Shown one piece after another: positions 1 through 13,775 of a stretch of DNA of 13,775 nt. Made by a program: the position numbers and the translations under genes. How positions within the stretch are numbered: position 1 is the first letter of the stretch; every line of letters starts with the position of its first letter. Origin of the DNA: Pseudomonas sp. PGPPP3 (lineage in GTDB: Bacteria > Pseudomonadota > Gammaproteobacteria > Pseudomonadales > Pseudomonadaceae); assembly GCA_002256055.1 (NCBI GenBank), contig NKIE01000028.1, forward strand, positions 1 to 13,775, written 5' to 3'. The notes under the pieces were generated by a model. That model was not told where the DNA came from, made no database searches, and worked only from the letters and a program-made list of their open reading frames with translations.

Positions 1-946
1 CATCCAGCGTGTTCTGGGTGTAGGGCATGGTGGGGTTGGTGGAGCTGGGCAAAAAGTTCGCTTGACCCACGACCTTCAAGATGTCCGGGGCATGACCGCC
101 GCCCGCACCTTCGGTGTGGAAGGCGCACAGGCCGCGACCCTTGGTGGCTTCAATCGTGTTCTCCACAAAGCCGGATTCATTGAGCGTGTCGGAGTGAATG
201 GCGACCTGCGTATCGGTGTCGTCGGCCACGTCCAGGCAATTGCTGATGGCGGCGGGCGTGGTGCCCCAGTCTTCGTGCAGCTTGAGGCCGATCACACCCG
301 CGTTGATCTGCTCGTGCAGCGCCGCAGGCAGCGAGGCATTGCCCTTGCCCAAAAAGCCCAGGTTCATGGGGAAAGCGTCGGCCGCTTGCAGCATGCGCTC
401 GATGTTCCAGGGGCCTGGGGTGCAGGTGGTGGCAAAAGTGCCGGTGGCCGGCCCCGTGCCGCCACCTAGCATGGTGGTCACGCCACTGGAGAGCGCTTCT
501 TCAATCTGCTGCGGGCAGATGAAGTGGATGTGGCTGTCGATGCCACCCGCCGTGACGATGTTGCCCTCGCAGCTGATGATTTCAGTACCCGGCCCGATGA
601 TGATGTCCACACCCGGCTGGGTGTCAGGGTTGCCCGCTTTGCCGATGGCCACAATGCGCCCGCCTTTGAGGCCGATGTCAGCCTTGACGATGCCCCAGTG
701 GTCGAGGATGAGGGCGTTGGTCAGCACGCAGTCCACGGCTCCTTCAGCGCGCGTTCTTTGCGACTGTGCCATGCCGTCACGTATGGTTTTGCCACCGCCG
801 AACTTCACCTCTTCGCCATAACTTCCGGCGGCCAGGGTGTAGTCTTTTTCGACCTCAATGATCAGGCCGGTATCGGCCAGGCGCACACGGTCACCGGTGG
901 TGGGGCCGAAGATTTCCGCGTAGGCGCGGCGGGCTATGGTGGCCAT
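1..946 (-). CDS. ureC: Urease alpha subunit UreC, N-terminal 315 residues (cut by window edge)
   Basis: UreC is the catalytic subunit of nickel urease, which hydrolyses urea to ammonia and carbamate in the cytoplasm. My translation from the ATG at 946 reads open to the window edge. Visible active-site residues are His139 and His141 (HIHFICPQQ), Lys222, the lysine carbamylated to bridge the nickels (KLHEDWG), His224, His251 (HSDTLNE) and His277 (HTEGAGGGH). Each lies five residues after its Klebsiella counterpart because of an insertion near residues 38-42 (LAAGS region), which I associate with Burkholderiales enzymes and not Pseudomonas ones. The catalytic His320-equivalent loop and the C-terminal half lie beyond the edge. 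A GAGG ribosome-binding site sits just upstream, and the gene begins 9 bp after the LysE-family gene, so it is the distal gene of the ureA operon here. The family and start are secure. Confidence 0.97.
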
Positions 947-955
947 GCAAGGTCC

Positions 956-1645
956 TCAACTCAAATAGGGGGCCGCACTGCCCAAGCGGGTGCTGGACTT
1001 CAGGGGCGCTGAAACAGAAGCCGGGTCGGCGGTGAACAAATCTCGCAAGGTGCCCAAGGCCAACGTGAGTAGGGCCACCGCACACAGCCGGTAGGTAAAA
1101 CGGGCCCAACGCGTGCCGGCACGGCGAAACAACTGGTCCACGAGCGCCGCGCACACAAAGCACCACACCACCGATGCCGCCATGAATCCGCTGAAGAAGA
1201 CGCCATAGTCGGTGGAAGTCGGTTGGGTCACCCCAATTGCGCCCAGCGCACTGCCCATGGCGGCCCAGTACGCAATGTTTTGAGGGTTGGACAGGGAAAG
1301 CGCCATGCCTTTGCGCAAGGCGTGGGTGGCGCTGCTGCGGATACTGCTGTCGACGGTGTGGGGCACTTTGGCCGCCTGCCAGCTGTCCCAGGACAGGTAG
1401 ACCAGATAGGCCGAGCCTGCCAGACCCAAGGGCCAGCGCAGGCCATCGAGTTGAAGTGCCAGGCCAATGGCGGCCAGGCCCAGAACGGCCCACGAGGCAT
1501 CCCCTACCAGAGAGCCCAACTGCACCGCAAATGCCGCCCGATAGCCGCCTCGCACGCCCTGGCGCAGCGTCTCGGCGAATACTGCGCCAGGCGCTGCGTT
1601 AAACACGAGGCCCAAGCCAAAGGCAGCGACGAATAGGGTCAGCAT
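956..1645 (-). CDS. LysE/RhtB-family transporter inside the urease operon
   Basis: This is a 229-residue, strongly hydrophobic protein with about six membrane segments. It carries LysE/RhtB family hallmarks: an N-terminal helix followed by a PGAVFAETLRQG-type motif (about residues 19-31), and a central SLSNPQNIAYW motif (about 117-127) equivalent to the family's NPK/N signature. Family members export amino acids such as lysine, homoserine or threonine across the inner membrane; the substrate here cannot be read from sequence. The gene lies 10 bp after ureB and 9 bp before ureC on the same strand, so it should be co-transcribed with the urease subunits. No strong Shine-Dalgarno precedes the ATG at 1645, so translation may be coupled to ureB. 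An amino-acid exporter has no established urease role; export of a nitrogenous product is only a guess. Confidence 0.85.
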   Translation of the reverse strand: MLTLFVAAFGLGLVFNAAPGAVFAETLRQGVRGGYRAAFAVQLGSLVGDASWAVLGLAAIGLALQLDGLRWPLGLAGSAYLVYLSWDSWQAAKVPHTVDSSIRSSATHALRKGMALSLSNPQNIAYWAAMGSALGAIGVTQPTSTDYGVFFSGFMAASVVWCFVCAALVDQLFRRAGTRWARFTYRLCAVALLTLALGTLRDLFTADPASVSAPLKSSTRLGSAAPYLS

Positions 1646-1655
1646 CGGGTCGGGG

Positions 1656-1973
1656 TCAGGATGTAGCGTCCAAGGGACCTTGGGTCAGGCCGCGAAAGCC
1701 AAACACGATGCGGGCACCGCCCAAGTCCACCAACTCGACGGTACGCTGTTGTCCAGGTTCAAAACGTACTGCAGAGCCCGAGGCAATATTCAGGCGCATG
1801 CCTTGCGCCGCTGCGCGGTCAAAGCCAAGCGCGCCATTGGTTTCTGCAAAGTGGTAGTGCGAGCCCACTTGAATGGGACGCTCGGACGTGTTTTGCACCA
1901 CCAGTGTCAGCGTGCGTCGACCCCTATTGAGGGTGTGTTCGCCTGCGTCAGTCAAACTGCAATAGCAAGGCAC
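1656..1973 (-). CDS. ureB: Urease beta subunit UreB with unusual GTG start
   Basis: This 105-residue urease beta subunit packs against UreC in the (UreABC)3 complex. The core is typical: [20 protein letters not shown], then the ALGFDR, RLNIASG and [13 protein letters not shown] blocks. The start is odd. Most UreB proteins begin MIPGE-, but here the reading frame begins at a GTG (complement of 1971-1973) coding for PCYCS before the conserved LTDAGEH. An in-frame TAG lies six bases upstream, so no earlier start exists in this frame. The first 26 bp overlap the 3' end of the preceding hupE gene in another frame, and no proper ribosome-binding site is visible, so translation probably depends on coupling with hupE. 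Overall length matches the family. Identity is secure; the N-terminus is less so. Confidence 0.93.
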
Positions 1974-2550
1974 TGCCTAGCGCCGCTACCGCGCCGCCTG
2001 CGATACGGGGAAGCCAGACGCTGGCACTGCGCAGTTTCCAGCCTACCGCCAGCCCCACGGCATGCAACAGGGCTGTGGCGGTAAACATGCCTGCCAATAC
2101 CTGAAATGCATGGGTGCTTTGCGCCAGTTCCAGGCCATGGGCTTGGCCATGAAACAGGGCGAAGCCGCCCAGCAGAAAGGCAGAGACCTGGGTGGGCAAC
2201 TGTGCGCGCGTGACTACCAGTAAACCGACCGCCAGTAACGAGGTGGCCACCATTGGCTCCATGGCGGGGAGTGTGATGCCTTGCAGGCCCAAGAGCGCGC
2301 CCAGCAGCAAAAAGTTGGCGAACGCCAAGGGCCCCCAAAGCAATTCTGGCCCTGCGCGGCGTGCGGTGAGGGCCGACCACAGACCCACGGCCAGCATGGC
2401 GGCGAGGTGGTCAACTCCCAAAAAGGGGTGCACCAGGCCCGCTAAAAAGCTAGAGTGCACATGGTTTTCAACCCCCGAATGTGCCATTGAGGCCGTGGAT
2501 AGTGCGGGAGCAGCTATCAAAACTAGAGCGTTGCGAAGTGCAGGGTGCAT
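1948..2550 (-). CDS. ureJ: HupE/UreJ-family nickel permease (urease-operon copy)
   Basis: HupE/UreJ proteins are small inner-membrane proteins thought to import nickel for hydrogenase or urease. From the ATG at 2550 the product is 200 residues. It starts with a cleavable-looking signal peptide (cut after about Ala23, STASMA|H), which would leave a histidine at the mature N-terminus as usual in the family. The signature [18 protein letters not shown] follows at about residues 41-58, then several hydrophobic helices and the conserved [10 protein letters not shown] segment. I chose 2550 because a GGAG ribosome-binding site stands six bases before it and the signal peptide then has normal length. 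An alternative ATG at 2595 overlaps the ureA stop codon as ATGA and would add 15 residues. The gene lies between ureA and ureB and is one of two hupE-type genes in the window. Confidence 0.9.
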
Positions 2551-2591
2551 AGAAGACTCCAACAAAGTGTCACGTAAAGCCGTACGGCTGT

Positions 2592-2894
2592 TCATACGAT
2601 CGGCTGGTGCACGGTCACCAGCTTGGTGCCATCTGGAAAGGTGGCTTCCACCTGAATGTCCGGGATCATTTCGGCGATGCCATCCATCACGTCGTCGCGG
2701 GTCAGTACGGCGCGGCCCTCACTCATGAGCTGGGCAACGGTCTTGCCGTCGCGGGCGCCTTCCATGACGGCGGCGCTGATCAGGGCCACCGACTCAGGGT
2801 AGTTCAACTTCAAGCCGCGGGCTTTGCGCCGCTCTGCCAGCAATGCTGCGGTAAAGATCAGCAACTTGTCTTTTTCACGGGGGGTGAGTTCCAT
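2592..2894 (-). CDS. ureA: Urease gamma subunit UreA
   Basis: This 100-residue urease gamma subunit is the smallest structural subunit of the (UreABC)3 enzyme. Beginning ([14 protein letters not shown]) and end ([18 protein letters not shown]) are the usual UreA termini, and the length is exactly typical. The middle ([41 protein letters not shown], in two conserved blocks) looks like Burkholderiales UreA; Pseudomonas proteins usually have LVAERRLARGVKLNYPEAM at this point. The ATG at 2894 has an AGGA element nine bases upstream; upstream in-frame codons extending the frame to 3056 lack UreA character and overlap the divergent gene. It is the first gene of the left-hand operon. UreD, often encoded directly upstream of ureA, is absent. 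Confidence 0.97.
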
Positions 2895-2950
2895 AGTGTC
2901 AATTCCTAAGCAAGGCCCGTGCCCTGTCCGCCGAGTCGGCTTTGCGCCAA

Positions 2951-2966
2951 TGGCATGAAAGCTGCA
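2951..2966 (+). promoter_or_regulatory. Candidate sigma-54 promoter for the permease-kinase gene
   Basis: The bases TGGCATGAAAGCTGCA fit the RpoN consensus TGGCACGNNNNTTGCA with two mismatches and the required GG-N10-GC spacing (GG at 2952-2953, GC at 2964-2965). The expected transcription start, about 12 bases after the GC, is near 2977. This coincides with the most upstream possible start codon (GTG 2977), implying either a leaderless message or true translation from a later GTG such as 3031. No convincing NtrC-type enhancer site was found nearby. Confidence 0.55.
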
Positions 2967-2976
2967 CCACGAGGGG

Positions 2977-5900
2977 GTGAACTCCCGTCCCCCCGATCTC
3001 TCAACCTCGACGGAGACCCCCCAGGTCCAAGTGCCACCCGTGCAGCGGGTGGTCAAAATTCGCCGTGACTACAACAATTGGGTGGCTTCCGAGACCATGG
3101 AAGACTACGCCCTGCGCTTCACGCCCAAGTCGTTTCGCAAGTGGTCGGAGCTGCGCATCGCCAACACCGCATTGGGCGCTGTGTCATTCCTGGCCTTGGA
3201 GGCCATCGGTGGCGCCCTGGCACTGAGCTATGGCTTCACCAATACCCTGTGGGCGATTCTGGCGGTGAGCCTGATCATCTTCCTCACCGGCCTGCCCATC
3301 AGTTACTACGCCGCGCGCTACGGCGTGGACATGGACCTGCTGACCCGCGGCGCCGGCTTTGGCTATATCGGCTCGACCATCACCTCGCTGATCTACGCCA
3401 GTTTCACCTTCCTGTTCTTTGCCCTCGAAGCGGCGATCATGGCCCTGGCCCTGGAGCTGTATTTCGAGATTCCGCTGGCGCTGGCCTATGTGCTTTGTTC
3501 GATCCTGATCATTCCCCTGGTGACCTATGGCATCACCCTGATCAATCGCCTGCAGGTCTGGAGCCAGCCGGTGTGGCTGCTGTTGCTGTTGCTGCCGTAT
3601 GTGTTTGTGATCATCAAGAACCCGCAGGCCCTGAGCGACCTGCCCAGCTTTGCCGGCCGGGAAGGCGAAGGTGGCAGCTTCGACCTGCTGTCGTTCGGCG
3701 CTGCCTGTACCGTGGCCCTGGCACTGGTGACGCAGATTGGCGAACAGGTCGACTACCTGCGCTTTCTGCCGGAAAAAACCCGCGCCAACCGCAAACGCTG
3801 GTGGGCGGCAATGCTGATGGCCGGCCCCGGCTGGATCATCCCTGGCGCGCTGAAAATGCTCGGCGGCGCCTTCCTGGCGTTTCTCGCCCTGCAGCACGAA
3901 ATCCCCATGGAGCGCGCCGCCGAGCCCACGCAGATGTACCTGGTGGCCTACAGCTATGTGTTCTCCTCGCCGGAATGGGCGCTGGGGGCGATGGTGCTGT
4001 TCGTCATCGTCTCGCAGGTCAAAATCAACCTGACCAACGCTTACGCCGGCTCCCTGGCCTGGTCGAACTTCTTTGCCCGCGTCACCCACAGCCATCCGGG
4101 CCGGGTGGTGTGGCTGGTGTTCAACGTCGCCATCGCCCTGATGCTGATGGAGCTGGGCGTATTCGATGTGATCGAACAGGTCCTCGGCCTGTACGCCAAC
4201 ATCGCCATCGCCTGGATCGGCGCATTGGTGGCCGACCTGGTGATCAACAAACCCCTGGGCCTGTCGCCCTCCTATATCGAGTTCAAGCGCGCGCACCTGT
4301 ACGACATCAACCCGGTGGGTGTTGGCGCCATGCTCAGCGCCTCGCTGCTGTCGGTGCTGGCCCACGGCGGGCTGTTCGGCGAACTGGCCCAGGCCGCCTC
4401 GCCGCTGGTCGCCCTCGGTTCGGCATTGCTGATTGCGCCGCTGTTGGCGGTGCTCACCCGCGGGCGTTTCTATATTGCCCGGCAGAGTCCGAGCGAGCTG
4501 CTCTACCCGCACATGCAGCAGAAGAAGATTGCCTGCGTGCTGTGCAGCAATGGTTTCGAGGTGGAAGACATGGCCTTCTGCCCCGCCTACGGCGCACCGA
4601 TCTGTTCGCTGTGTTGTTCGCTGGATGCGCGCTGCAACGACCTGTGTAAACCACGGGCGCGGCTGGCCGAGCAGTTCGACGACCTGGTTCGCTGGCTGCT
4701 ACCCAACGCCAGCATCCCGCGCCTGCACACCCGCCTGGCCCATTACCTGGGGGTGCTGACGGTCATCGTCAGCCTGTTGTTCTGCGCCTTCGCGTTGATC
4801 TACAGCCAGGTCGCCCAGGGCCTCGGCGAGAATGCCGGGGATGCAGTGCAAACCTTGTACCTGGCGTTTCTCAAAGCCTTTTTGACCCTCTCGATGTTTG
4901 CCGCCGTGCTCGCCTGGTGGATTGTCCTGACCCGCGAAAGCCGGCGCGTGGCGCAGGAGGAATCGAGCCGCCAGACCCATCTGCTGATGCAGGAAATCGA
5001 AGCGCACCAACGCACCGACGAGGAGCTGCAAAAAGCCAAGGAAGCCTCCGAAGCCGCCAACGCGGCCAAGAGTCGCTACGTCACTGGCCTGTCTCACGAG
5101 CTGCGCACGCCGCTCAACAGCATGCTCGGTTACACCCAGATTCTGCAGCGCGATGCCGCCACCCCACCGCAACAGCAGGACGCCCTGGCGACCATTCTGC
5201 GCAGCGGCTCACACCTGCTGTCGCTGATCGACGGCCTGCTCGACGTGGCCAAGATCGAGGTCGGCAAGCTCAATCTGGAGCCCAGCGAAATCCCCTTCCC
5301 GGAGTTCCTCCAGCAGTTGCAGCGGATGTTCAGCCCGCAGGCCGAAGAGAAGGGCCTGCGCTTTCACTTCGAGTTGCAAGGGCGAATGCCCGCAGTGGTG
5401 CGCGGCGACGAGAAACGCATCCGCCAGATCCTGATCAACCTGCTCGGCAATGCCGTGCGCTACACCGAGCAGGGCAGCGTCGGCCTGCGCGTCAGCTATG
5501 CCCGCGAGACGGCCACGTTCGAGATCAGCGACAGCGGCATCGGCATCCCCGAGGCGCAGCTGGAGCGCATCTTCCAGCCGTTCGAGCGCGGCGACCCGCT
5601 GCGCCAGGACAACGGCGTCGGCCTCGGCCTGACCATCACCAAGCTGCTGATCTCGCTGATGGGCGGCGAGCTTTCGGTGAAGAGCCAGCCCGGCCAGGGC
5701 ACCCAGTTTCAGGTGCGGTTGTTTCTCTCCGAGGTGCGGGTGCCGCAGGCGGTGGTGCATGTGGAGCACAACATCATCGGCTACCAGGGCCGCCGCCAGC
5801 TGATTCTGGTGGTCGACGACCATCAGCAGCACCGCCAAGTACTCGCCGGCATGCTCGAACCCCTGGGCTTTCAGGTGCTGCAAGCCGGCAATGGCCTGGA

Positions 5901-6426
5901 GGCCGTGCGCCTGGTGGCCGAACACCAGCCCGACCTGATCCTTATGGACCTGGCCATGCCGCAGATGGACGGCTGGCAAACCAGCCAGCTGATCCGCCGC
6001 AATGCGCTGTCGCAGGCGCCGATCATCGTCGTTTCAGCCAACGCCTTTGCCGACGACCGCGAGCGCAGCGTCGAAGCCGAGTGCAACGACTACCTGGCTA
6101 AGCCGGTGTATATCCCGGCACTGCTGGACAAGGTCAAAACCCACCTACAGCTGCAATGGCTCAAACGCGCCGAACCGCTGCCAGGCCCGCTAGCACCGCT
6201 AATTGCGCCGTCGGTGGCTGCCCTCAACGCCCTCTACGAGTTGGGCGAACTGGGTTACGTCAAAGGCATTCTGGAAAAACTCGACTGGCTGGAGCAGCAC
6301 GAACCGCAGAGCGCCAGCTACGTGCAGAGCCTGCGTGGCCAGGTCAAACGCTTCCAACTGAACGATTTCAACCGCCGCCTGAAGGACGCCCTGCACCACG
6401 CCGAGCGCCCCATCAGCACGGAATAA
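2977..6426 (+). CDS. NCS1-type permease fused to hybrid histidine kinase/receiver (transporter-sensor)
   Basis: This 1149-residue inner-membrane protein combines transport and signalling domains. Residues about 28-510 form an NCS1 (nucleobase:cation symporter-1) permease with about 12 membrane helices, opening [20 protein letters not shown]; relatives carry cytosine, uracil, allantoin or hydantoins. Next come an eight-cysteine cluster (Cys520-Cys557), two more hydrophobic helices (about 590-655) and a coiled-coil linker. The kinase has phospho-accepting His707 (SHELRTPLN), N box Asn821/Asn825, G1 DSGIGIP (852-858) and G2 GVGLGLT (880-886). The receiver has acidic Asp947/Asp948, phosphorylation site Asp991 and Lys1042. 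A roughly 90-residue tail has no domain I recognise. By analogy with CbrA-type permease-kinases, it may sense or transport a nitrogen compound; the ligand is unknown. The start is uncertain: GTG 2977 has poor ribosome-binding spacing, and GTG 3031 is the alternative. A LuxR-type regulator follows 15 bp downstream. Confidence 0.9.
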
Positions 6427-6441
6427 CCCAAGGACACCGCC

Positions 6442-7116
<675 letters not shown>

Positions 7117-7194
7117 GACTCTCCGATTATGCGAAAGACGACTAGCCCGTTAGCTGTTGCGTACCCGCCACTACCGGTTTCGCCTTTACGGCGA

Positions 7195-7242
7195 GTCACT
7201 TTCTCTTTGCTTGCGCGAAAGAGAAAGTAACCAAAGAGAAAG
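7195..7242. repeat. Long hairpin with a duplicated 3' arm
   Basis: ACTTTCTCTTT (7198-7208) and AAAGAGAAAGT (7218-7228) form a perfect 11-bp stem with a nine-base loop. Two further pairs beyond one mismatch extend it to 7195 and 7231. A second copy of the right arm, AAAGAGAAAG, lies at 7233-7242, so the left arm could pair with either. It may act as a transcription barrier for the upstream operon but lacks the GC-rich stem and U-tract of a classic terminator. Confidence 0.8.
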
Positions 7243-7257
7243 CGCACCCGGCATCCG

Positions 7258-7274
7258 GGTTTCGCTGCGCGAAA
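7258..7274. repeat. Small inverted repeat GTTTCGC-TGC-GCGAAAC
   Basis: Seven-base perfect arms around a three-base loop, in the same repeat block. Its function is unknown. Confidence 0.6.
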
Positions 7275-7312
7275 CTCCCCTCGCTCCGGCACTGCTCCGA
7301 GGGTCGTCACGG

Positions 7313-7330
7313 TGGGCCATCCCTGGCCCA
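7313..7330. repeat. Inverted repeat TGGGCCA-TCCC-TGGCCCA
   Basis: Seven-base perfect arms around a four-base loop, part of the repeat block between the convergent genes. Confidence 0.65.
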
Positions 7331-7339
7331 TCGTTCCTC

Positions 7340-7359
7340 GTTTGGCATCCATGCCAAAC
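7340..7359. repeat. Inverted repeat GTTTGGCAT-CC-ATGCCAAAC
   Basis: Nine-base perfect arms separated by two bases make a near-continuous 20-bp palindrome, ten bases after the preceding hairpin. It is probably part of the same composite repeat. Confidence 0.7.
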
Positions 7360-7424
7360 GCCTCTCTCCACAGCACCTCCACTCGGCCTCCTGACGGGAC
7401 CGGGGACCGAGGTGCCTGACAAAT

Positions 7425-7452
7425 TTGTGAGAGCGGTCTTGACCGCGAAGCC
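7425..7452. repeat. Pseudomonas-type REP element
   Basis: The stretch around GCGGTC-TT-GACCGC (7433-7446), flanked by TGTGAGA on the left and GAAG on the right, has the layout of the Pseudomonas REP palindrome (a TGTGGGAGCGGGCTTGCCCGCGAA-like motif). A palindromic ACAAATTTGT (7419-7428) adjoins it. REPs are mobilised by RAYT transposases and usually sit at gene 3' ends, as here, 26 bases downstream of the desB stop codon in the convergent gap. The hairpin may double as a terminator for either side. Confidence 0.7.
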
Positions 7453-7477
7453 CTAAATCATCACAGCCAGCGCCCAA

Positions 7478-8548
7478 TCAAACAGCATTCGGCAGGCGAT
7501 AGACCCAGATGCGCTTGAGCACCGAACCGAACTGCGCGGCAAAGCTGCCGCTGTTGTAGGTCTGGCCGTAGCGCTGGGCGATCTCGCGAACCTGTACGGC
7601 CAGCTCGGCATAGCGACGGGCCGGCAGGTCGGGAAACAGATGGTGCTCAATCTGGTGACTGAGGTTGCCGGTGAGGATATGAAACAGCCGGCCACCTTCC
7701 AGGTTGCTGGAGCCGCGCATCTGCCGCAGGTACCAGTGGCCACGGCTTTCGCCCTCCAGCACGCTGGCCGGGAACACCGCCGCCTGTTCGGTGAAGTGGC
7801 CGCAGAAGATGATCGCAAAGGTCCACAGGTTACGGATCAGATTGGCCATCACGTTACCGGCCAGCACCGCCAGGGCATTGGCCCCCAGCAGCAGCGCCAG
7901 CAACGGGAAGAACAGGTAATCCTTGGCCCACTGGCGGGCGATCTTGCCGTTGAACTGCTTGAGCAACGGCCGCAGTTCTTCACGGCTCATGCGCCCCTTG
8001 AAGTACTGATCAAGACGCAGGTGTTGCACCGCCACCGAGTACTGAAACAGCAGCGCCTGGATCGTCACCCACAGCGGCTGCCAGCGGTAATACGGCTTCC
8101 AGCGCTGCTCCGGGAACAGGCGCACCACGCCGTAGCCGATGTCATCGTCCATGCCCAGCACATTGGTGTAGGTGTGGTGGATATGGTTGTGGGTGTGCCG
8201 CCAGAAATCGCCGGGGCCGGCGATGTCCCACTCGAAGGTGCCCCCGCTCAGCTCGGGATCGTTCATCCAGTCGTACTGACCGTGCATGACGTTGTGGCCG
8301 AGCTCCATGTTGTCGAGGATCTTGGCCAGCCCAAGCAGCAGGCTGCCGAGCAGCCAGGTCGGCGGAAACCAGCCGGCCAGCAACAACAGTCGACCGGCTA
8401 AGGCACTTAGCCGAGTAGCACGGCGAATACGGCGAATATAGCGCGCATCGGCCGCGCCGAGATCGGCCAGGGTGCGGTTGCGCAGGGCATCCAGCTCGGC
8501 GCCGAAGGCATCCTGCTCAGCCGGGGATAATTGACGGTCTTCGCGCAT
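7478..8548 (-). CDS. desB: Acyl (delta-9 type) fatty acid desaturase DesB
   Basis: This 356-residue membrane di-iron desaturase introduces a cis double bond into saturated acyl chains, contributing to aerobic unsaturated fatty acid supply; P. aeruginosa DesB is reported to act on acyl-CoA. Three histidine clusters are present: HNVMH (His85/His89), HTHNHIHH (118-125) and HQIEHH (His298, His302, His303), plus His251 after a membrane helix (CGHFTEQ). Hydrophobic helices lie at about 48-75 and 210-250. I start it at 8548, where a GGAG ribosome-binding site is correctly spaced; the longer open frame reading into the preceding gene is spurious. It begins 11 bp after desC, which should supply electrons, and both should be controlled by DesT. 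The gene order matches the P. aeruginosa desCB-desT locus. Confidence 0.93.
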   Translation of the reverse strand: MREDRQLSPAEQDAFGAELDALRNRTLADLGAADARYIRRIRRATRLSALAGRLLLLAGWFPPTWLLGSLLLGLAKILDNMELGHNVMHGQYDWMNDPELSGGTFEWDIAGPGDFWRHTHNHIHHTYTNVLGMDDDIGYGVVRLFPEQRWKPYYRWQPLWVTIQALLFQYSVAVQHLRLDQYFKGRMSREELRPLLKQFNGKIARQWAKDYLFFPLLALLLGANALAVLAGNVMANLIRNLWTFAIIFCGHFTEQAAVFPASVLEGESRGHWYLRQMRGSSNLEGGRLFHILTGNLSHQIEHHLFPDLPARRYAELAVQVREIAQRYGQTYNSGSFAAQFGSVLKRIWVYRLPNAV

Positions 8549-8559
8549 GGCGGACTCCT

Positions 8560-9651
8560 TCACAGGTCGACCACGACATCGCCCTGGGGGACGCTGACGC
8601 AGATGCGGATGGGTTGGCCGGGCTCGTGCTGCAGTTGGCCGTTGCGCAGATCGCGCACCGTACCGCTGAGCAAGGTGCAGGTGCAGCGGGTGCAGATGCC
8701 CTGACGACAGCCGTGCACAGGCCGCAGGCCATGGGCCTCGGCTTGCTGCAACAGGCTGTTCGCGCTGTCGCCCGTGACCGCCAGCTGGCTGCGCGCGAAC
8801 TGCAGCTGCAGCGGCGCCGTACTGGCGCTCGCCTCGACCGGCGGCAGGCTGAAGGCCTCGGCCTGCACCTCGCCAACCCACTGCTCGCGCACGCTGGTGA
8901 CAAAGCCATGGGGGCCGCAGACCAGCAGGCTACTGCCCGGCAAAGCGTGCAGATGGGCGGGCTGAAAGCGCCCACTCAGCTCATCGGCCTGGGCCGCCTC
9001 GCCACTGATGGCCCAGCGCACCTGCAGGTTCGGGTACTGGCTCATGAGACGCTGCAACTCGCGGCTGAAGGCCCGCTGACTGCGCTGGCGCACGTAGTGC
9101 AGCAAGGTAATCGGCGCCGTGAACCCCTCACTCAGGGCTTGCCGTAACAAACCCAGCAACGGCGTGATGCCGCTACCGGCAGCCAGCAGTAGCACGCCGT
9201 CGCGGCTCGCCGGCCAATACAGGCTGCCGTCGGCTTGGCCCAGCTCCAGCACCTGGCCCACCGGCAGATGGTCGAGCAACTGATTAGACATGCGCCCGCC
9301 GGGCTGACGTTTGATCGCCAGCTCGATGCGGCCATCGCAGTGCACGGCCGTCAGGCTGTAGCTGCGGCTCAGGCGTGTGCCGTCATGCGGCATGTACAGC
9401 TGCACATGCTGGCCGGCCTGCCAGCCGCGGGCGTTGCCGTTGCAGCGCAAGGTCAGAGCCAGCATGTCTTCGGCCACCCACTCACGCGCCTCAACCCGGG
9501 CCATGACGCGGTTCAGGCGCCAGGCCGGATGCAAAGCCTGCAGAAGCAAATCGACATCTGCTTCACGCAGCCAGGCCGTGGCGCTCAGCCGCCGCAAGGG
9601 CTGCAACAGCGCCGCACTGGCGCGCATCCAGGCAAAGGGAATCAGGGCCAT
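8560..9651 (-). CDS. desC: Ferredoxin-type oxidoreductase DesC, electron donor to the desaturase
   Basis: This 363-residue flavin/iron-sulfur reductase most likely passes electrons from NAD(P)H to the adjacent desaturase. After about 45 N-terminal residues comes a ferredoxin-reductase fold: RSYSL (96-100) contacts the flavin, GSGITP (159-164) is the nucleotide-binding glycine motif, and CGP (245-247) closes the NAD domain. The C-terminal domain is a plant-type 2Fe-2S ferredoxin with Cys315, Cys320, Cys323 and Cys351. I chose ATG 9651 because the frame beyond it runs through the operator and promoter DNA and into divergent desT. The ribosome-binding site is weak (GAG). A DesT-like operator ends 12 bases upstream of the start codon, so repression would block initiation directly. 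Confidence 0.92.
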   Translation of the reverse strand: MALIPFAWMRASAALLQPLRRLSATAWLREADVDLLLQALHPAWRLNRVMARVEAREWVAEDMLALTLRCNGNARGWQAGQHVQLYMPHDGTRLSRSYSLTAVHCDGRIELAIKRQPGGRMSNQLLDHLPVGQVLELGQADGSLYWPASRDGVLLLAAGSGITPLLGLLRQALSEGFTAPITLLHYVRQRSQRAFSRELQRLMSQYPNLQVRWAISGEAAQADELSGRFQPAHLHALPGSSLLVCGPHGFVTSVREQWVGEVQAEAFSLPPVEASASTAPLQLQFARSQLAVTGDSANSLLQQAEAHGLRPVHGCRQGICTRCTCTLLSGTVRDLRNGQLQHEPGQPIRICVSVPQGDVVVDL

Positions 9652-9663
9652 GGGCTCTATCTC

Positions 9664-9681
9664 AGTGAACAATTGTTCACC
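9664..9681. promoter_or_regulatory. DesT-like operator 1 (start-proximal to desC)
   Basis: AGTGAACAATTGTTCACC contains the perfect 16-bp palindrome GTGAACAATTGTTCAC (9665-9680). It resembles the FabR/DesT operator pattern AGTGAAC-N4-GTTGACT known from Pseudomonas. It covers the region immediately after the proposed -10 element and so the expected desC transcription start. Confidence 0.8.
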
Positions 9682-9711
9682 AAGATGCCAGAAGCGCTGA
9701 GTTTCAGTCAA
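9682..9711 (-). promoter_or_regulatory. Candidate desC-desB promoter
   Basis: On the minus strand TTGACT (9711-9706) makes a strong -35, and CATCTT (9687-9682), 18 bases on, is a weak -10. The -35 lies inside operator 2 and the -10 abuts operator 1, the expected geometry for repression by DesT. This is inferred from motif spacing only. Confidence 0.45.
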
Positions 9712-9723
9712 CACTTGTTCACC
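9706..9723. promoter_or_regulatory. DesT-like operator 2 overlapping the desC -35
   Basis: Read on the minus strand this is GGTGAACAAGTGTTGACT, matching the DesT pattern GTGAAC-N4-GTTGACT. Its centre is 42 bp from operator 1, about four helical turns, so two dimers would sit on the same DNA face. The TTGACT part doubles as a plausible -35 for desC. Confidence 0.78.
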
Positions 9724-9810
9724 TGAATCGCCGAACGGTCGGTCATAGGTTCGACGCCGCCAGACTGCTTTTGCTAAAGTGCAGGCCGTTACCCAGGATG
9801 CTGTGTCGCT

Positions 9811-10479
9811 ATGTCTTCCCCCCGCGCCGCCCAAAAACAGCAAACCCGCCAGGCCTTGATGGCGGCTGCCCGCACCTTAATGGACGGCGGCCGTGGCTTT
9901 GGCAGCCTGAGCCTGCGCGAGGTGACCCGCACCGCCGGCATCGTACCCACCGCGTTCTACCGGCATTTCCATGACATGGATGAGCTGGGCCTGGCACTGG
10001 TGGCCGAGGTCGGCGAGACCTTTCGCGAAACCCTGCGCCAGGTGCGCCGCAATGAATTCGAGCTGGGCGGCATGATCGAGGCCAGCACGCGCATCTTTCT
10101 CGACTCGGTGGCCGCCAACCGCGCCCAGTTTCTGTTTTTGGCTCGCGAACAGTACGGTGGCTCACAGCCTGTAAGGCAGATCCTCACGAACCTGCGCCAG
10201 CGCATCACTGATGATCTGGCGGCCGACTTGAAGTTGATGAATCGCATGCCGCATCTGGATGCCGCAGCCATGGATGTGGTCGCCGACCTGGTGGTGAAAA
10301 CCGTGTTCGCCACCCTGCCGGAACTCATCGACCCACCGGCCGAGTCCCTGCCGGCCCACCTGACCGCGCAAGCCAAAATCACCCAGCAACTGCGCTTTAT
10401 CATGATCGGCGGCAAACACTGGCAAGGTCTGGGCAAACCCGACGCCGAGCCAGGCACTGCCGCAGTGCAACAACCTTAA
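9811..10479 (+). CDS. desT: TetR-family repressor DesT
   Basis: This 222-residue TetR-family regulator is divergent from desC-desB. The N-terminal helix-turn-helix (about residues 10-58) has the typical TRQALMAAARTLMDGG, LSLREVTRTAGIVPTAFYRHF blocks, the last being the recognition helix region. The C-terminal part (about 60-205) would be the ligand-binding and dimerisation domain. In P. aeruginosa, DesT binds acyl-CoA and tunes desaturase and fab gene expression to the ratio of unsaturated to saturated acyl-CoA. Here the two DesT-like palindromes in the shared 159-bp gap support the same role. The start ATG at 9811 has an AGGATG element about ten bases upstream. Immediate downstream genes are the unrelated ureEFG, which have their own promoter. 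Confidence 0.9.
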   Translation: MSSPRAAQKQQTRQALMAAARTLMDGGRGFGSLSLREVTRTAGIVPTAFYRHFHDMDELGLALVAEVGETFRETLRQVRRNEFELGGMIEASTRIFLDSVAANRAQFLFLAREQYGGSQPVRQILTNLRQRITDDLAADLKLMNRMPHLDAAAMDVVADLVVKTVFATLPELIDPPAESLPAHLTAQAKITQQLRFIMIGGKHWQGLGKPDAEPGTAAVQQP

Positions 10480-10562
10480 GCGCGCACCAAATAAACCCAG
10501 CCTATCTACCCAAGCTGATGCACGCCGCCGCCCAACGTGGCCTTGCACACTTATAGGGCGCT

Positions 10563-10578
10563 TGGCACCACCCTTGCT
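10563..10578 (+). promoter_or_regulatory. Sigma-54 promoter of ureE-ureF-ureG
   Basis: TTGGCACCACCCTTGCT matches the RpoN consensus TTGGCACG-N4-TTGCW almost perfectly, with GG at 10564-10565, GC at 10576-10577 and ten bases between. The predicted transcription start near 10589 leaves a leader of about 24 bases before the ureE ATG at 10613. A sigma-54 promoter implies an enhancer-binding activator, most likely NtrC under nitrogen limitation; no clear NtrC site was recognised in the 130-bp gap. Confidence 0.85.
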
Positions 10579-10612
10579 TTGCCAGTGACATTCACTTTGT
10601 CGGAATGTCGTC

Positions 10613-11113
10613 ATGCTGGTCATCCACCACCGCATTCAAGCCCAGGAGCACTGGGACACTGAGCTGCTGCTGAACTTCGAGGCCCGCAGCAAGAGTCGCC
10701 TGCGCTGCTTTACCACCACCGGCGAAGACGTCGGTCTGTTTCTCGAGCGCGGTCAGCCCGCGTTGCAACAGGGCGACTGCCTGCAAGCGCTGGATGGCCG
10801 CGTCGTGCGCGTCTGCGCCCGGCCCGAAGCGCTGCTGCACGTGACCTGCGCCAACGCCTTCGAACTGACCCGCGCCGCCTATCACTTGGGTAACCGTCAT
10901 GTGGCCCTGCAACTGGGCGATGGCTGGCTGCGGCTGCCCGATGACTACGTGCTCAAGGCCATGCTCGAACAACTGGGCGCCTGCGTGGAGCTGATCGAGG
11001 CGCCCTATCAACCCGAGCAAGGTGCCTACGGCGGCGGCCATCACCACTCCCATGCCGGCGATGCCGAGTTCAGTTATGCGCCGCGCCTGCATCAGTTCGG
11101 TGTGCGCACATGA
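10613..11113 (+). CDS. ureE: Urease nickel metallochaperone UreE
   Basis: This 166-residue UreE delivers nickel to the urease maturation complex in the cytoplasm. The peptide-binding N-terminal domain (about 1-72, with SRLRCFTTTGEDVGLFLERG) is followed by the metal-binding domain with the conserved GNRHV motif; its His96 is the nickel ligand at the dimer interface. The C-terminus carries a short histidine run HHHSH (143-147), much smaller than the His-rich tail of Klebsiella UreE. The stop codon overlaps the ureF start codon (ATGA), implying translational coupling. It is the first gene after a sigma-54 promoter. Sequence style is Pseudomonas-like, unlike the ureABC set on the other side of the window. 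Confidence 0.96.
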   Translation: MLVIHHRIQAQEHWDTELLLNFEARSKSRLRCFTTTGEDVGLFLERGQPALQQGDCLQALDGRVVRVCARPEALLHVTCANAFELTRAAYHLGNRHVALQLGDGWLRLPDDYVLKAMLEQLGACVELIEAPYQPEQGAYGGGHHHSHAGDAEFSYAPRLHQFGVRT

Positions 11114-11784
11114 ACCCCGCGTGGCAGCTTCTGCGGCTTGCCAGTCCGCAGTTGCCGATTGGTGGTTACAGCTATTCCCAGGGGCTGGAAATGGCCGTGG
11201 AACAGGGCCTGGTCACTAACGCAGAAAGCGCCCAACGCTGGATCAGCGACCAACTACTACTCAACCTGGCGCGCTTCGAGGCGCCGCTGCTGCTCGCCCA
11301 TTGCCAGGCTGCTGCGCTTGAGGACTGGGGGCAGCTGCACAGCCTAGCCGCGCAACAACGCGCCAGCCGCGAAACCCGCGAGCTACAGCAGGAAAGCCGG
11401 CAAATGGGCTACTCCCTGCAGCAACTGCTGCAAGGTCTGCCGGAACTGGATGACCAGGCGCGCAACTGTCTGAGCACGCTGGCTGAGCCCGGCCTGGCAG
11501 TGACCTGGGCCCTGGCCGCCCGTGCCTGGCAGATCAGCCCACAGGATGCCCTGGCCGCCTGGCTGTGGGGCTGGCTGGAAAACCAACTGGCGGTGTTGAT
11601 GAAGACCCTGCCGTTAGGCCAGCAAGCCGCCCAACGCCTCACCTCACAACTGTTACCTGCGCTGCAAAGCGCTCAGCAAGAGGCCAGTAGCCTGGACCCG
11701 CAGCAGTGGGGCAGCGCAGCCTTCGGCCTGGCCCTGACGAGCATGGCGCACGAGCGCCAGTACAGCCGTTTATTTCGTTCTTGA
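11110..11784 (+). CDS. ureF: Urease accessory protein UreF
   Basis: This 224-residue all-helical UreF, in complex with UreD and UreG, builds the apo-urease activation complex and helps gate GTP-dependent nickel insertion. The conserved N-terminal [16 protein letters not shown] (about 12-27) and the C-terminal [14 protein letters not shown] are characteristic, and the length is normal. The ATG overlaps the ureE stop codon by the ATGA arrangement. Its partner UreD is not encoded in this window, so it must come from elsewhere in the genome for the system to work. Confidence 0.96.
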
Positions 11785-11803
11785 TGATAAGGAAGACGCA
11801 ACC

Positions 11804-12418
11804 ATGAACAGCCAACCCCTGCGCATTGGCATCGGTGGCCCGGTCGGCTCCGGCAAGACCGCCCTGACCCTGGCACTGTGCCTGGCACTGCGCGAGCGCT
11901 ACAACCTGGCCGTGGTCACCAACGATATCTACACCCAGGAAGACGCGCAGTTTCTGGTGCGCAATGAAGCCCTGGCCCCGGAGCGGATCATCGGCGTGGA
12001 AACCGGCGGCTGCCCGCACACAGCAATCCGCGAGGACGCCTCGATCAATCTGGAAGCAGTCGACCAGCTCAATCGGCGTTTTCCAGGGCTCGATCTGATC
12101 ATCGTCGAATCCGGTGGCGACAACCTGTCGGCCACCTTCAGCCCTGAGCTGTCGGACCTGACCCTGTACGTGATCGATGTGTCGGCCGGCGACAAGCTGC
12201 CGCGCAAAGGTGGCCCCGGAATCTGCAAATCCGACCTGCTGGTGATCAACAAGATCGACCTGGCGCCACTGGTGGGTGCGTCCCTAGAGGTGATGGAGCG
12301 CGACACCCTGAAGATGCGTGGCGACAAGCCGTTCGTGTTCAGCAACCAGAAAACCGGCCAGGGGCTGGAACAGATCATCGCCTTTATCGAACGCCACGGC
12401 ATGCTCAACGCCGCCTGA
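11804..12418 (+). CDS. ureG: Urease accessory GTPase UreG
   Basis: This 204-residue SIMIBI-class GTPase couples GTP hydrolysis to nickel insertion into urease. It shows the Walker A motif GGPVGSGKT (11-19), the metal-binding Cys70-Pro-His72 motif of the nickel-linked dimer, ESGGDN (102-107) and the guanine-specificity motif NKID (149-152). There is no His-rich N-terminal extension, as usual for bacterial UreG of this type. It starts 19 bp after ureF with a GGAAG-like ribosome-binding site and belongs to the ureEFG operon. Confidence 0.98.
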
Positions 12419-12438
12419 AGCCGCCAAGGAGACTCACC

Positions 12439-13011
12439 ATGAAACTGCGCAACAGCTTGTCAGCCCTCACCCTGCTGTTAACTCCAACACTGGCATTTGC
12501 TCACACCGGTCATGGGACCAGCGGCCTGCTGGCCGGCCTCAGCCACCCACTCGGCGGCCTGGATCATCTGCTGGCCATGCTCGCCGTCGGTCTGTGGGCG
12601 GCGCAGCAGCAGGGTCAGGCCCGCTGGGCGCTACCGTTGACCTTCATCGCCAGCCTGTTACTGGGCGGCCTGCTGGGCTTCGCTGAGATTCAGGTGCCAC
12701 AGCTGGAAACCGGGATTTCCGGTTCAGTGCTGGCCCTCGGCCTGCTCGTAGCCGTGGCGGCGCGCTTGCCGATGGCCGCAGCCTTGGGCCTGACGACCTT
12801 GTTTGGCCTGAGCCACGGCATCGCTCATGGCCTGGAGCTCCCCGGCGCTAGCAGCCCGCTGGGTTACACCCTCGGCTTCGTGGCCGCCACCACGTTGCTG
12901 CATGCCTGTGGCTATGCCCTGGCCCGCTACCTGCCGCTGGCCACTGCCGGCCTGGTGCGCCTCGCTGGCGCCGGCACCGCAGGCGTCGGCCTGTGGCTGC
13001 TCGCCAGCTAA
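12439..13011 (+). CDS. ureJ: HupE/UreJ-family nickel permease (second copy)
   Basis: This 190-residue HupE/UreJ-type membrane protein is the presumed nickel importer for urease. A signal peptide ends at about Ala21 (TLAFA|HTGHG), leaving an N-terminal histidine as in characterised HupE proteins. The signature [18 protein letters not shown] (36-53) and later FGLSHGIAHGLEL are clear, with about six helices. AAGGAG lies eight bases before the ATG and the gap to ureG is 20 bp, so it completes the ureEFG operon. The same position is held by a hupE-type gene after ureG in P. aeruginosa. It is paralogous to the hupE gene between ureA and ureB; the two share the [15 protein letters not shown] pattern. 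Confidence 0.92.
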   Translation: MKLRNSLSALTLLLTPTLAFAHTGHGTSGLLAGLSHPLGGLDHLLAMLAVGLWAAQQQGQARWALPLTFIASLLLGGLLGFAEIQVPQLETGISGSVLALGLLVAVAARLPMAAALGLTTLFGLSHGIAHGLELPGASSPLGYTLGFVAATTLLHACGYALARYLPLATAGLVRLAGAGTAGVGLWLLAS

Positions 13012-13092
13012 AGCGCCAGGCGTTAACCTGCCACCTTCACAGGCTGCCGCCATGCCCATGGCGCGGCCTGTTCACGGCTCAAGGAGGTGAGC

Positions 13093-13680
13093 ATGGTTTT
13101 GCGTTCAATTTGTGTATTTTGCGGTGCCCGGCCGGGCCATGACCCTGCCTACGCCGAGGCCGCCGTGACACTCGGGCGCACCCTCGCCGAGCAGGGTATC
13201 CGTTTGGTTTATGGCGGCGGCGCCGTGGGCTTGATGGGCATTGTCGCCGATGCAGCGCTGGCAGCAGGCGGCGAAGTCATCGGCATCATTCCGCAAAGCC
13301 TGGAACACTCGGAAATCGGCCACAGCGGCCTGACCCGCCTGGAAGTGGTAGACGGCATGCACGCACGCAAGGCGCGCATGGCTGAACTCAGCGACGCGTT
13401 TATCGCCCTACCCGGTGGTCTCGGCACCCTGGAGGAACTCTTCGAGGTCTGGACCTGGGGCCAGCTTGGCTATCATCAAAAGCCCCTGGGCTTGCTGGAG
13501 GTCAACGACTTCTTCAGCAAGCTGTGTATTTTTCTCGATCATCTGGTGAACGAAGGCTTTGTTCGCAGCGAACACCGCGCCATGCTGCAAAGCAGCAACA
13601 ATGCCGAAGCGCTATTGCAGCAACTGCACGACTGGCAGCCAACCGCAGCGGCCAAATGGGCTGGGCAACGCCAGCCGTGA
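13093..13680 (+). CDS. LOG-family cytokinin riboside 5'-monophosphate phosphoribohydrolase
   Basis: This 195-residue protein belongs to the LOG family (TIGR00730-type Rossmann proteins, once annotated as lysine decarboxylases). Members hydrolyse nucleoside monophosphates to base plus ribose 5-phosphate. The LOG signature [10 protein letters not shown] (107-116) is intact, with GGGAVGLMG (41-49) at the phosphate-binding loop and the conserved Arg95 region (ARKARMAE). I chose ATG 13093 because an AAGGAGG ribosome-binding site (13081-13087) is well placed for it; a GTG at 13087 overlaps that site. It follows the second hupE gene by 81 bp and is probably a separate unit. Whether the role is cytokinin-like or nucleotide salvage cannot be told. 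Confidence 0.93.
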
Positions 13681-13727
13681 ACGACCTGTAGATCAACGCG
13701 GCACCCTGACCCGCCCTGGAGGCATAG

Positions 13728-13775
13728 ATGGCAAAGCACAAGAAAGCCGAGCAGGCACAACACGACGCCGAGCAG
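13728..13775 (+). CDS. Start of a Lys/Glu-rich protein (cut by window edge)
   Basis: An ATG at 13728 is preceded by a good GGAGG site seven bases away and opens a frame to the edge reading MAKHKKAEQAQHDAEQ. Only 16 residues are visible, highly charged, so the family cannot be named. Confidence 0.55.
   Translation, partial: MAKHKKAEQAQHDAEQ

Follow-up and report, generated by a model that had tools for sequence, protein, structure and literature searches.

An NCS1-type transporter fused to a hybrid histidine kinase, a probable receptor for urea and short-chain amides

Fusions between transporters and histidine kinases are an already known kind of sensor; the ammonium transporter Ks-Amt5, for instance, is reportedly fused to a kinase (PMC5764959). 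The protein described here is a hybrid histidine kinase with an N-terminal NCS1-type transporter, which is encoded on contig NKIE01000028.1 (C311) of Pseudomonas sp. PGPPP3; this stretch of 13,775 nucleotides is referred to as the window and derives from an assembly (GCA_002256055.1) of 914 contigs that is 81% complete. It shares with Ks-Amt5 the fusion of a nitrogen transporter to a kinase, but Ks-Amt5 has the Amt fold and ammonium as its ligand. In the Pseudomonas protein CbrA (SLC5-STAC-PAS-kinase), a LeuT-fold transporter likewise lies N-terminal to a histidine kinase that functions in nutrient sensing; however, this transporter belongs to the SLC5 rather than the NCS1 family, the linker is the four-helix STAC domain instead of a cysteine-rich segment, and the ligand is histidine. 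CbrA has been described with PAS, DHp and CA domains and with Lys196 located in the Na2 site (PMC13022988). CrbS, which also combines SLC5 and STAC, is a hybrid kinase with a LuxR-type response regulator, as in the system reported here, but differs from it in the transporter family, the linker and its acetate regulon; its partner CrbR was reported to act via an imperfect inverted repeat upstream of the target genes (PMC5715377). The NCS1 proteins CodB and Mhp1 are similar in fold and profile and differ in the pocket side chains, the C-terminal linker and the kinase. MetT, an NCS1 metformin transporter, resembles the putative receptor in its acyclic nitrogen substrate but stands alone, a comparison made by description only (PMC13390362).

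Several described systems respond to the same class of compounds. The fmdCABDEF genes of Methylophilus methylotrophus, which encode a formamidase and functions for the uptake of short-chain amides and urea, were reported to be induced by formamide and urea; the accessible text of that report makes no mention of such a pair of kinase and regulator (PMC10781810). The AmiC/AmiR system also provides amide-responsive control of amidase genes, but does so by a binding protein and an antiterminator rather than by a membrane kinase (PMC13209695). The authors of the SIMBAL study suggested that urt genes located beside fmdA or amiE may carry amides (PMC3098086). The ammonia sensor GrtK is unrelated in domain design according to the description available (PMC12918730). 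In Dechloromonas aromatica, a histidine kinase of 1131 amino acids and a receiver protein of 308 amino acids beside urtA are listed without analysis in the accessible part of the source (PMC2907700), and among the open-access literature matches listed, none described an NCS1-kinase or the kinase-regulator pair. The NCS1 fusion adds a variant to the transporter-kinases, with another transporter family and another type of linker.

The kinase gene spans positions 2977 to 6426 on the plus strand and encodes 1149 amino acids as read from the open reading frame; its genuine start probably lies downstream of 2977. An earlier note, made from the window sequence, had read it as a complete NCS1-type permease joined to a kinase with an intact His707 and a receiver, and this fusion stands. 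The transporter domain comprises amino acids 24-505 (3046..4491, plus strand; delimited in alignment A1). The Pfam profile PF02133 (NCS1, TC 2.A.39) did not match the window protein, but more sensitive tests did assign it to this family: profile-profile comparison by hhalign against NCS1 members gave a probability of 99.0% (E 2.6e-18, 398 columns), whereas the controls SSS, UrtB, UrtC and UreJ remained at 0.1-4.4%, and the fold match returned the LeuT fold with CodB and Mhp1 as closest and SSS structures as lower-ranking entries. The counter-evidence named in the earlier note, a permease half that matches no NCS1 profile, thus applies to the Pfam profile only. The PF02133 cut-off was passed by the stand-alone relatives L112 and L287, not by L116 and L286. 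Neither the window half nor profile A1 nor L112 found an NCS1 structure in searches of PDB sequences; profile A2 matched Mhp1 and CodB. Membership in SLC5 was ruled out, since no SSF domain was found in a Pfam scan of amino acids 1-508 at E<=10 and hhalign against three SSF proteins reached 4.4%. The alignments disagree on the Na2 site, which is formed by two hydroxyls in transmembrane helix 8: one register places Lys349/Ile350 at Thr278/Thr279, another Leu352/Thr353, and a loss of the sodium site via Lys349 is a lead only.

The permease is followed by a zinc-ribbon-like linker (amino acids 520-557, 4534..4647, plus strand) with eight cysteines, which are invariant among the 25 aligned rows of fused proteins. 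It occupies the position held by STAC in the SLC5 kinases; STAC was not named in a Pfam scan of amino acids 509-690, and no separate comparison with a STAC profile was made. A profile of the linker found 59 places in 398 genomes, 57 of which are in permease-kinases, one in a fragment and one in a permease-less kinase (L113:7857-9713), which carries the second half of the cysteine motif only and adjoins a related LuxR-type regulator. In the structure model, two long helices (amino acids 586-689, 4732..5043, plus strand) follow, which are read as a transmembrane hairpin and a coiled coil. Pfam assigned the HisKA domain with His707 (5065..5259), the HATPase_c domain (5404..5727) and the receiver domain with Asp991 (5803..6135), all on the plus strand. 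After a gap of 15 bases, the same strand encodes a response regulator (6442..7116) with a receiver (Asp64) and a LuxR/GerE helix-turn-helix domain, both assigned by Pfam; it is likely the partner of the kinase, and a regulator was scored in 51 of 56 sampled loci. A shorter variant without the C-terminal receiver occurs near fmdA in two further loci (L114:6499-9156 and L115:6663-9347), followed in each case by a receiver-kinase protein.

The genes surrounding the fused kinases encode functions in urea and short-chain amide use. Two sets of loci were compared: a scan of genome contigs, from which 80 loci were kept and which gave a usable kinase match in 60 loci and the window, and 398 genomes drawn evenly from the phylum, 56 of which matched in 62 rows. 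In the second set, the 56 rows with scores >700 were counted, excluding the window and leaving out five weaker rows (G193:C40, G194, G236, G288 and G070). Genes for urt, ure, fmdA or amiE were present in the fetched stretch of 54 of these 56 rows, and both misses (L141 and L161) end at contig ends. The rows fall into the categories urt and fmd (35), ure (6), ure and urt (6), urt (5), fmd (2) and none (2). Urea or amide neighbours were also found at 56 of the 60 loci of the first set; three of the misses (L012, L025 and L027) start less than 4 kb from a contig end. Representative neighbours pass the curated NCBIfam cut-offs for FmdA formamidase, UrtA, UrtC and aliphatic amidase. The link to nitrogen scavenging proposed in the earlier note is thus borne out across genomes.

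The kinase was present in 52 of the 398 sampled genomes (rows scoring >700, own genome included), and 520 of 72,556 plasmid records matched its N-terminal half at E<=1e-50, 340 of them from Klebsiella and 303 conjugative; at least two of the 520 matches are stand-alone permeases. On a Burkholderia vietnamiensis plasmid, genes for a CN hydrolase (annotated as nitrilase), fmdB, a formamidase and five ATP-binding cassette (ABC) genes face the kinase-regulator pair among transposase genes, and on a conjugative Klebsiella plasmid the pair is faced by amiF-urtEDCBA. Four genomes (G225, G246, G379 and G158; loci L143/L119, L147/L117, L144/L118 and L139/L130) contain both urease-type and fmd-type kinases. 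In a FastTree tree of 94 rows, the window protein groups with four urt and fmd members in a five-row group (local support 98), in line with the gene context of the Pseudomonadaceae locus L055. Parsimony requires six switches from urease to amide context or back, and one of these is the window's own doubtful label. One copy from a contig titled Akkermansia muciniphila (L018) falls among Comamonadaceae in this tree and is probably a binning contamination.

The substrate pocket differs from that of the cytosine transporter. CodB was reported to hold cytosine via Gln105, Trp108 and Phe204, and an aromatic sandwich around the ring substrate, formed by a Trp of transmembrane helix 3 and a Phe or Trp of helix 6, is described as an NCS1 feature (PMC9379551). 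In a sequence alignment of 106 family rows, the position of Gln105 is Thr in all rows, that of Trp108 is Phe in 89 and Leu in 17, and that of Phe204 is Ile, Val or Met in 105 and Ser in one; an aromatic sandwich for a ring substrate was not found in these rows. Glu151 and Gln253 are invariant (106/106) and are also present in L112. Residues separating urease-linked and fmd-linked receptors were considered as a specificity code, which was rejected, as they mostly track the betaproteobacterial clade.

Stand-alone relatives of the permease half occur in similar settings. In Klebsiella, a relative labelled cytosine permease (L287:7941-9548, NZ_CP129771.1; 43% identical) follows ureG in a ureDABCEFG operon and is, judged by this position, likely a urea permease; it had no megablast match in E. 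coli genomes. The record is labelled plasmid, yet it carries dnaG and rpoD and is therefore probably chromosomal DNA. A Moraxella osloensis relative labelled allantoin permease (L286:7914-9557; 45% identical) is divergent from fmdA-fmdB. Both proteins keep Glu151, Gln253, Glu256, Gln257, Lys349 and the first part of the cysteine motif. The more distant L112 (27% identical) is followed by genes for a CN hydrolase, an AmiC-like binding protein and an AmiR-like ANTAR protein, and a PF02133 permease (L218:5155-6573), located after urtBCDE, is flanked by genes for an aliphatic amidase and a formamidase of the amiF type. The closer stand-alone relatives suggest urea or short-chain amides as ligands.

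Taken with the neighbourhoods, these observations make it quite likely that the fusion is a membrane receptor, derived from an NCS1 branch for urea and short-chain amides, which acts via the LuxR-type regulator on uptake and hydrolysis genes of the urt, fmd and ure groups. The NCS1 pocket would bind, or let through, urea or a small amide (formamide or acetamide, for example), the conformation of the transporter would change, and this change would be relayed via the cysteine-rich linker and the two long helices to the HisKA domain. Phosphate would then be passed from His707 to the partner regulator, with the built-in receiver possibly gating or buffering the transfer. The phosphorylated regulator is predicted to bind TACGTCA-N2-TGACGTA (amide-type) or TACGCCA-N2-TGGCGTA (urease-type) upstream of urtA and fmdA, may also use weaker copies of the palindrome upstream of ureA, and would thereby switch on the uptake and hydrolysis genes. 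The wider proposal has about an even chance of being correct: a new NCS1 branch would recognise urea and short-chain amides, some of its members would be stand-alone permeases (such as the one following ureG in Klebsiella), those joined by the zinc-ribbon-like linker to hybrid kinases would be the missing urea/formamide receptors, and duplicated systems would tell urea from amides via two operator variants with TACGCCA or TACGTCA half-sites.

The candidate operator co-occurs with the system. TACGTCA-N2-TGACGTA was found with at least 12 of 14 matches in 27 of 43 kinase-urtA intergenic regions versus 1 of 860 shuffles. A scan of 117 loci (2,246,009 bases) gave 62 sites at this threshold, 44 of which (in 43 loci) fall within the 700 bp preceding the kinase open reading frame or its first 200 bp; each of the other 18 directly precedes urtA or fmdA, in some cases at urtA operons about 6-14 kb away from the kinase. 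In L055, palindromes with 14/14 and 12/14 matches precede urtA and one with 12/14 precedes fmdA, and in each of the two plasmid copies a 13/14 box lies between urtA and the kinase. In the intergenic regions of the kinase-less Moraxella and Klebsiella permeases, the best boxes reach 8/14 and 9/14. Upstream regions of urtA were further compared between kinase-bearing and kinase-less genomes, using the Y/R form of the box at >=12/14: 0 of 40 regions from kinase-less genomes had a site (shuffles 4/400) versus 7 of 20 kinase-distant urtA genes in kinase-bearing genomes (shuffles 2/200), of which that in G246 is only about 4 kb from the kinase and that in L244 is identical with the site found in L142. 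The seven positive genomes have a urease-type kinase and the other 13 only fmd-type kinases; the boxes resemble TACGCCA-N2-TGGCGTA in six of the seven, and that of G158 is TACGTTA-N2-TGACGTA. Of 23 regions upstream of ureA, 10 contain a Y/R site with >=11/14 matches, compared with 11 of 460 shuffles. The NtrC-type motif TGCACCA-N5-TGGTGCA is not enriched in the urtA group and slightly so in the ureA group (4/23 at >=11 versus 6/460 shuffles).

A sigma-54 promoter, as claimed in the earlier note, is consistent with the family: sigma-54-like sites on the kinase strand are common (74 of 107, compared with 158 of 2140 shuffles). This agrees with a nitrogen-controlled kinase-regulator pair, and such a promoter would place the pair under this control in many beta- and gammaproteobacteria. 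In the window, one such site, TGGCATGAAAGCTGCA (2951..2966, plus strand), points towards the kinase, and a second, GGGCACGGGCCTTGCT (2909..2924, minus strand), points towards ureA, for which it would give a leader of only a few bases; both lie in a Comamonadaceae-like part.

Several observations weigh against the proposed urea/amide receptor. LuxR-type regulators are not expected to drive sigma-54 promoters, and the ureA-facing site is therefore not easily accommodated. Binding of the box by the partner regulator is deduced from co-occurrence, 16 of the 43 kinase-urtA intergenic regions have no box at >=12/14, and the counts are not independent, as the loci are related. The Rhodocyclaceae locus L007, the fourth miss of the first set, lacks all of these neighbours across 23.8 kb and is a real exception. 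Nine weakly related stand-alone permeases (L116, L210-L217) have no urea or amide markers nearby except one weak ABC match in L214. In the window's own assembly, neither UrtA over the cut-off nor fmdA was found, and no box with <=2 mismatches was present versus 10 in the reversed control. In the window itself, no box was found upstream of target genes, the best (10/14) lying outside the promoter, whose side is probably foreign. The completeness of 81% and the foreign-looking promoter side may explain the lack of box, UrtA and fmdA. Furthermore, linkage does not distinguish among urea, formamide and acetamide, or between a substrate and its product.

Of the alternatives, the one that survives best, at somewhat less than even odds, is that the domain is a receptor that does not transport and hence not a transceptor. 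Many loci hold a UrtABCDE importer alongside; however, at loci with urease genes or fmdA the stand-alone relatives appear to be permeases, and histidine uptake was reported for the SLC5 domain of CbrA (PMC13022988). The transceptor-like design suggested in the earlier note is supported, and a transceptor is the likely class of mechanism. It is unlikely that the sensor reads a signal other than the substrate, such as ammonia, pH, cyanate, transport flux or the nitrogen state. The ligand assignment is deduced and Ks-Amt5 offers a precedent for ammonium, but G225, G246, G379 and G158 each have two paralogues that differ in gene set and box variant, which a pair of substrates would explain more easily than a single general signal.

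The position of the window kinase beside urease genes, on which the earlier note had built, holds for the family but probably not for the window. The window was compared with same-family loci in 600-base bins and in finer bins across the kinase start. Where it matches, the part from 1 to 3000 is 70-92% identical to Comamonadaceae/Burkholderiales loci (84-92% in the ureC bins), and none of the five Pseudomonadaceae loci in the comparison matches it; beyond 3100, the window is 86-98% identical to the Pseudomonadaceae assembly L055/L003, and its kinase-regulator part is only 65-81% identical to Comamonadaceae loci. In bin 3040-3099, Comamonadaceae/Burkholderiales loci reach 80-88% and L055 72%, and in bin 3100-3159, L055 reaches 95% and the other loci 70-80%, which places a probable chimeric junction at 3040..3159 (plus strand), inside the conserved kinase start; residues ~1-40 of the open reading frame are Comamonadaceae-like and the remainder Pseudomonadaceae-like. 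Since the switch sits in sequence shared by two related systems, misassembly is the simplest reading: the left urease side (1-3100) was probably falsely joined to the kinase side (3100-13775), making the urease setting of the window an assembly artefact, although urease-linked members occur in many other loci. In the near relative L055, the kinase start faces urtA, urtB, urtC, urtD/E and fmdA, and L003 contains the rest of the kinase, the regulator and then ureE, ureF and ureG; the natural divergent neighbours of the amide-type window kinase are probably urtABCDE-fmdA as well. The idea that an amide-type kinase had been re-paired naturally with urease was dropped because of the similarity switch and because L055 does not match the left side of the window. 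There is a slight chance that the junction is natural and that a Pseudomonas acquired the urease side from Comamonadaceae through recombination within the start of the kinase gene, in which case the pair would now control urease or be a captured relict. No frame break interrupts the contig, and the Pseudomonas relatives L005/L006 hold the pair between urt and ure, so such contexts exist; however, the switch falls in a coding start common to both parent types within an assembly of 914 contigs, the closest relative keeps urtA at this place, another ureC/ureB/ureA set (71-77% identical) is located on contig C456 of the window's own genome, and the window promoter has no palindrome box. The kinase family itself is independent of the join, as complete members are also known from named isolates and from plasmids.

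The ligand favoured in the earlier note, a nucleobase, ring ureide or hydantoin sensed and possibly imported by the permease half, was rejected as highly improbable and probably a wrong guess: the NCS1 fold, with CodB (cytosine) and Mhp1 (hydantoin) as nearest solved structures, and the database names of the stand-alone relatives speak for it, but the sampled neighbours are urea and amide genes, the cytosine-holding side chains are not conserved, the stand-alone relatives lie with urease, formamidase and AmiC/AmiR-type amide genes, and the urease context of the window is itself doubtful.

If correct, the urea/amide receptor would name the sensor behind the induction by urea and formamide whose physiology has been reported in Methylophilus (PMC10781810), would extend to the 52 genomes and many of the plasmid records counted above, and would predict a urea permease in urease operons in which it is now labelled cytosine permease.

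The remaining genes of the window lie on both sides of the kinase-regulator pair. On the minus strand of the left part, ureA (urease gamma, 2592..2894) probably stems from another genome than the kinase body, and the origin of the HupE/UreJ family gene (1948..2595), ureB (urease beta, 1656..1973) and ureC (urease alpha, 2..946, cut by the window edge) is equally doubtful; a LysE-family gene (956..1645) lies between ureB and ureC. To the right, a block of fatty-acid desaturase, ferredoxin reductase and TetR (FabR-like) genes (7478..10479) separates the regulator from ureE (10613..11113), ureF (11110..11784) and ureG (11804..12418), which are located on the plus strand, are also present in L003 and are followed by a second UreJ gene.

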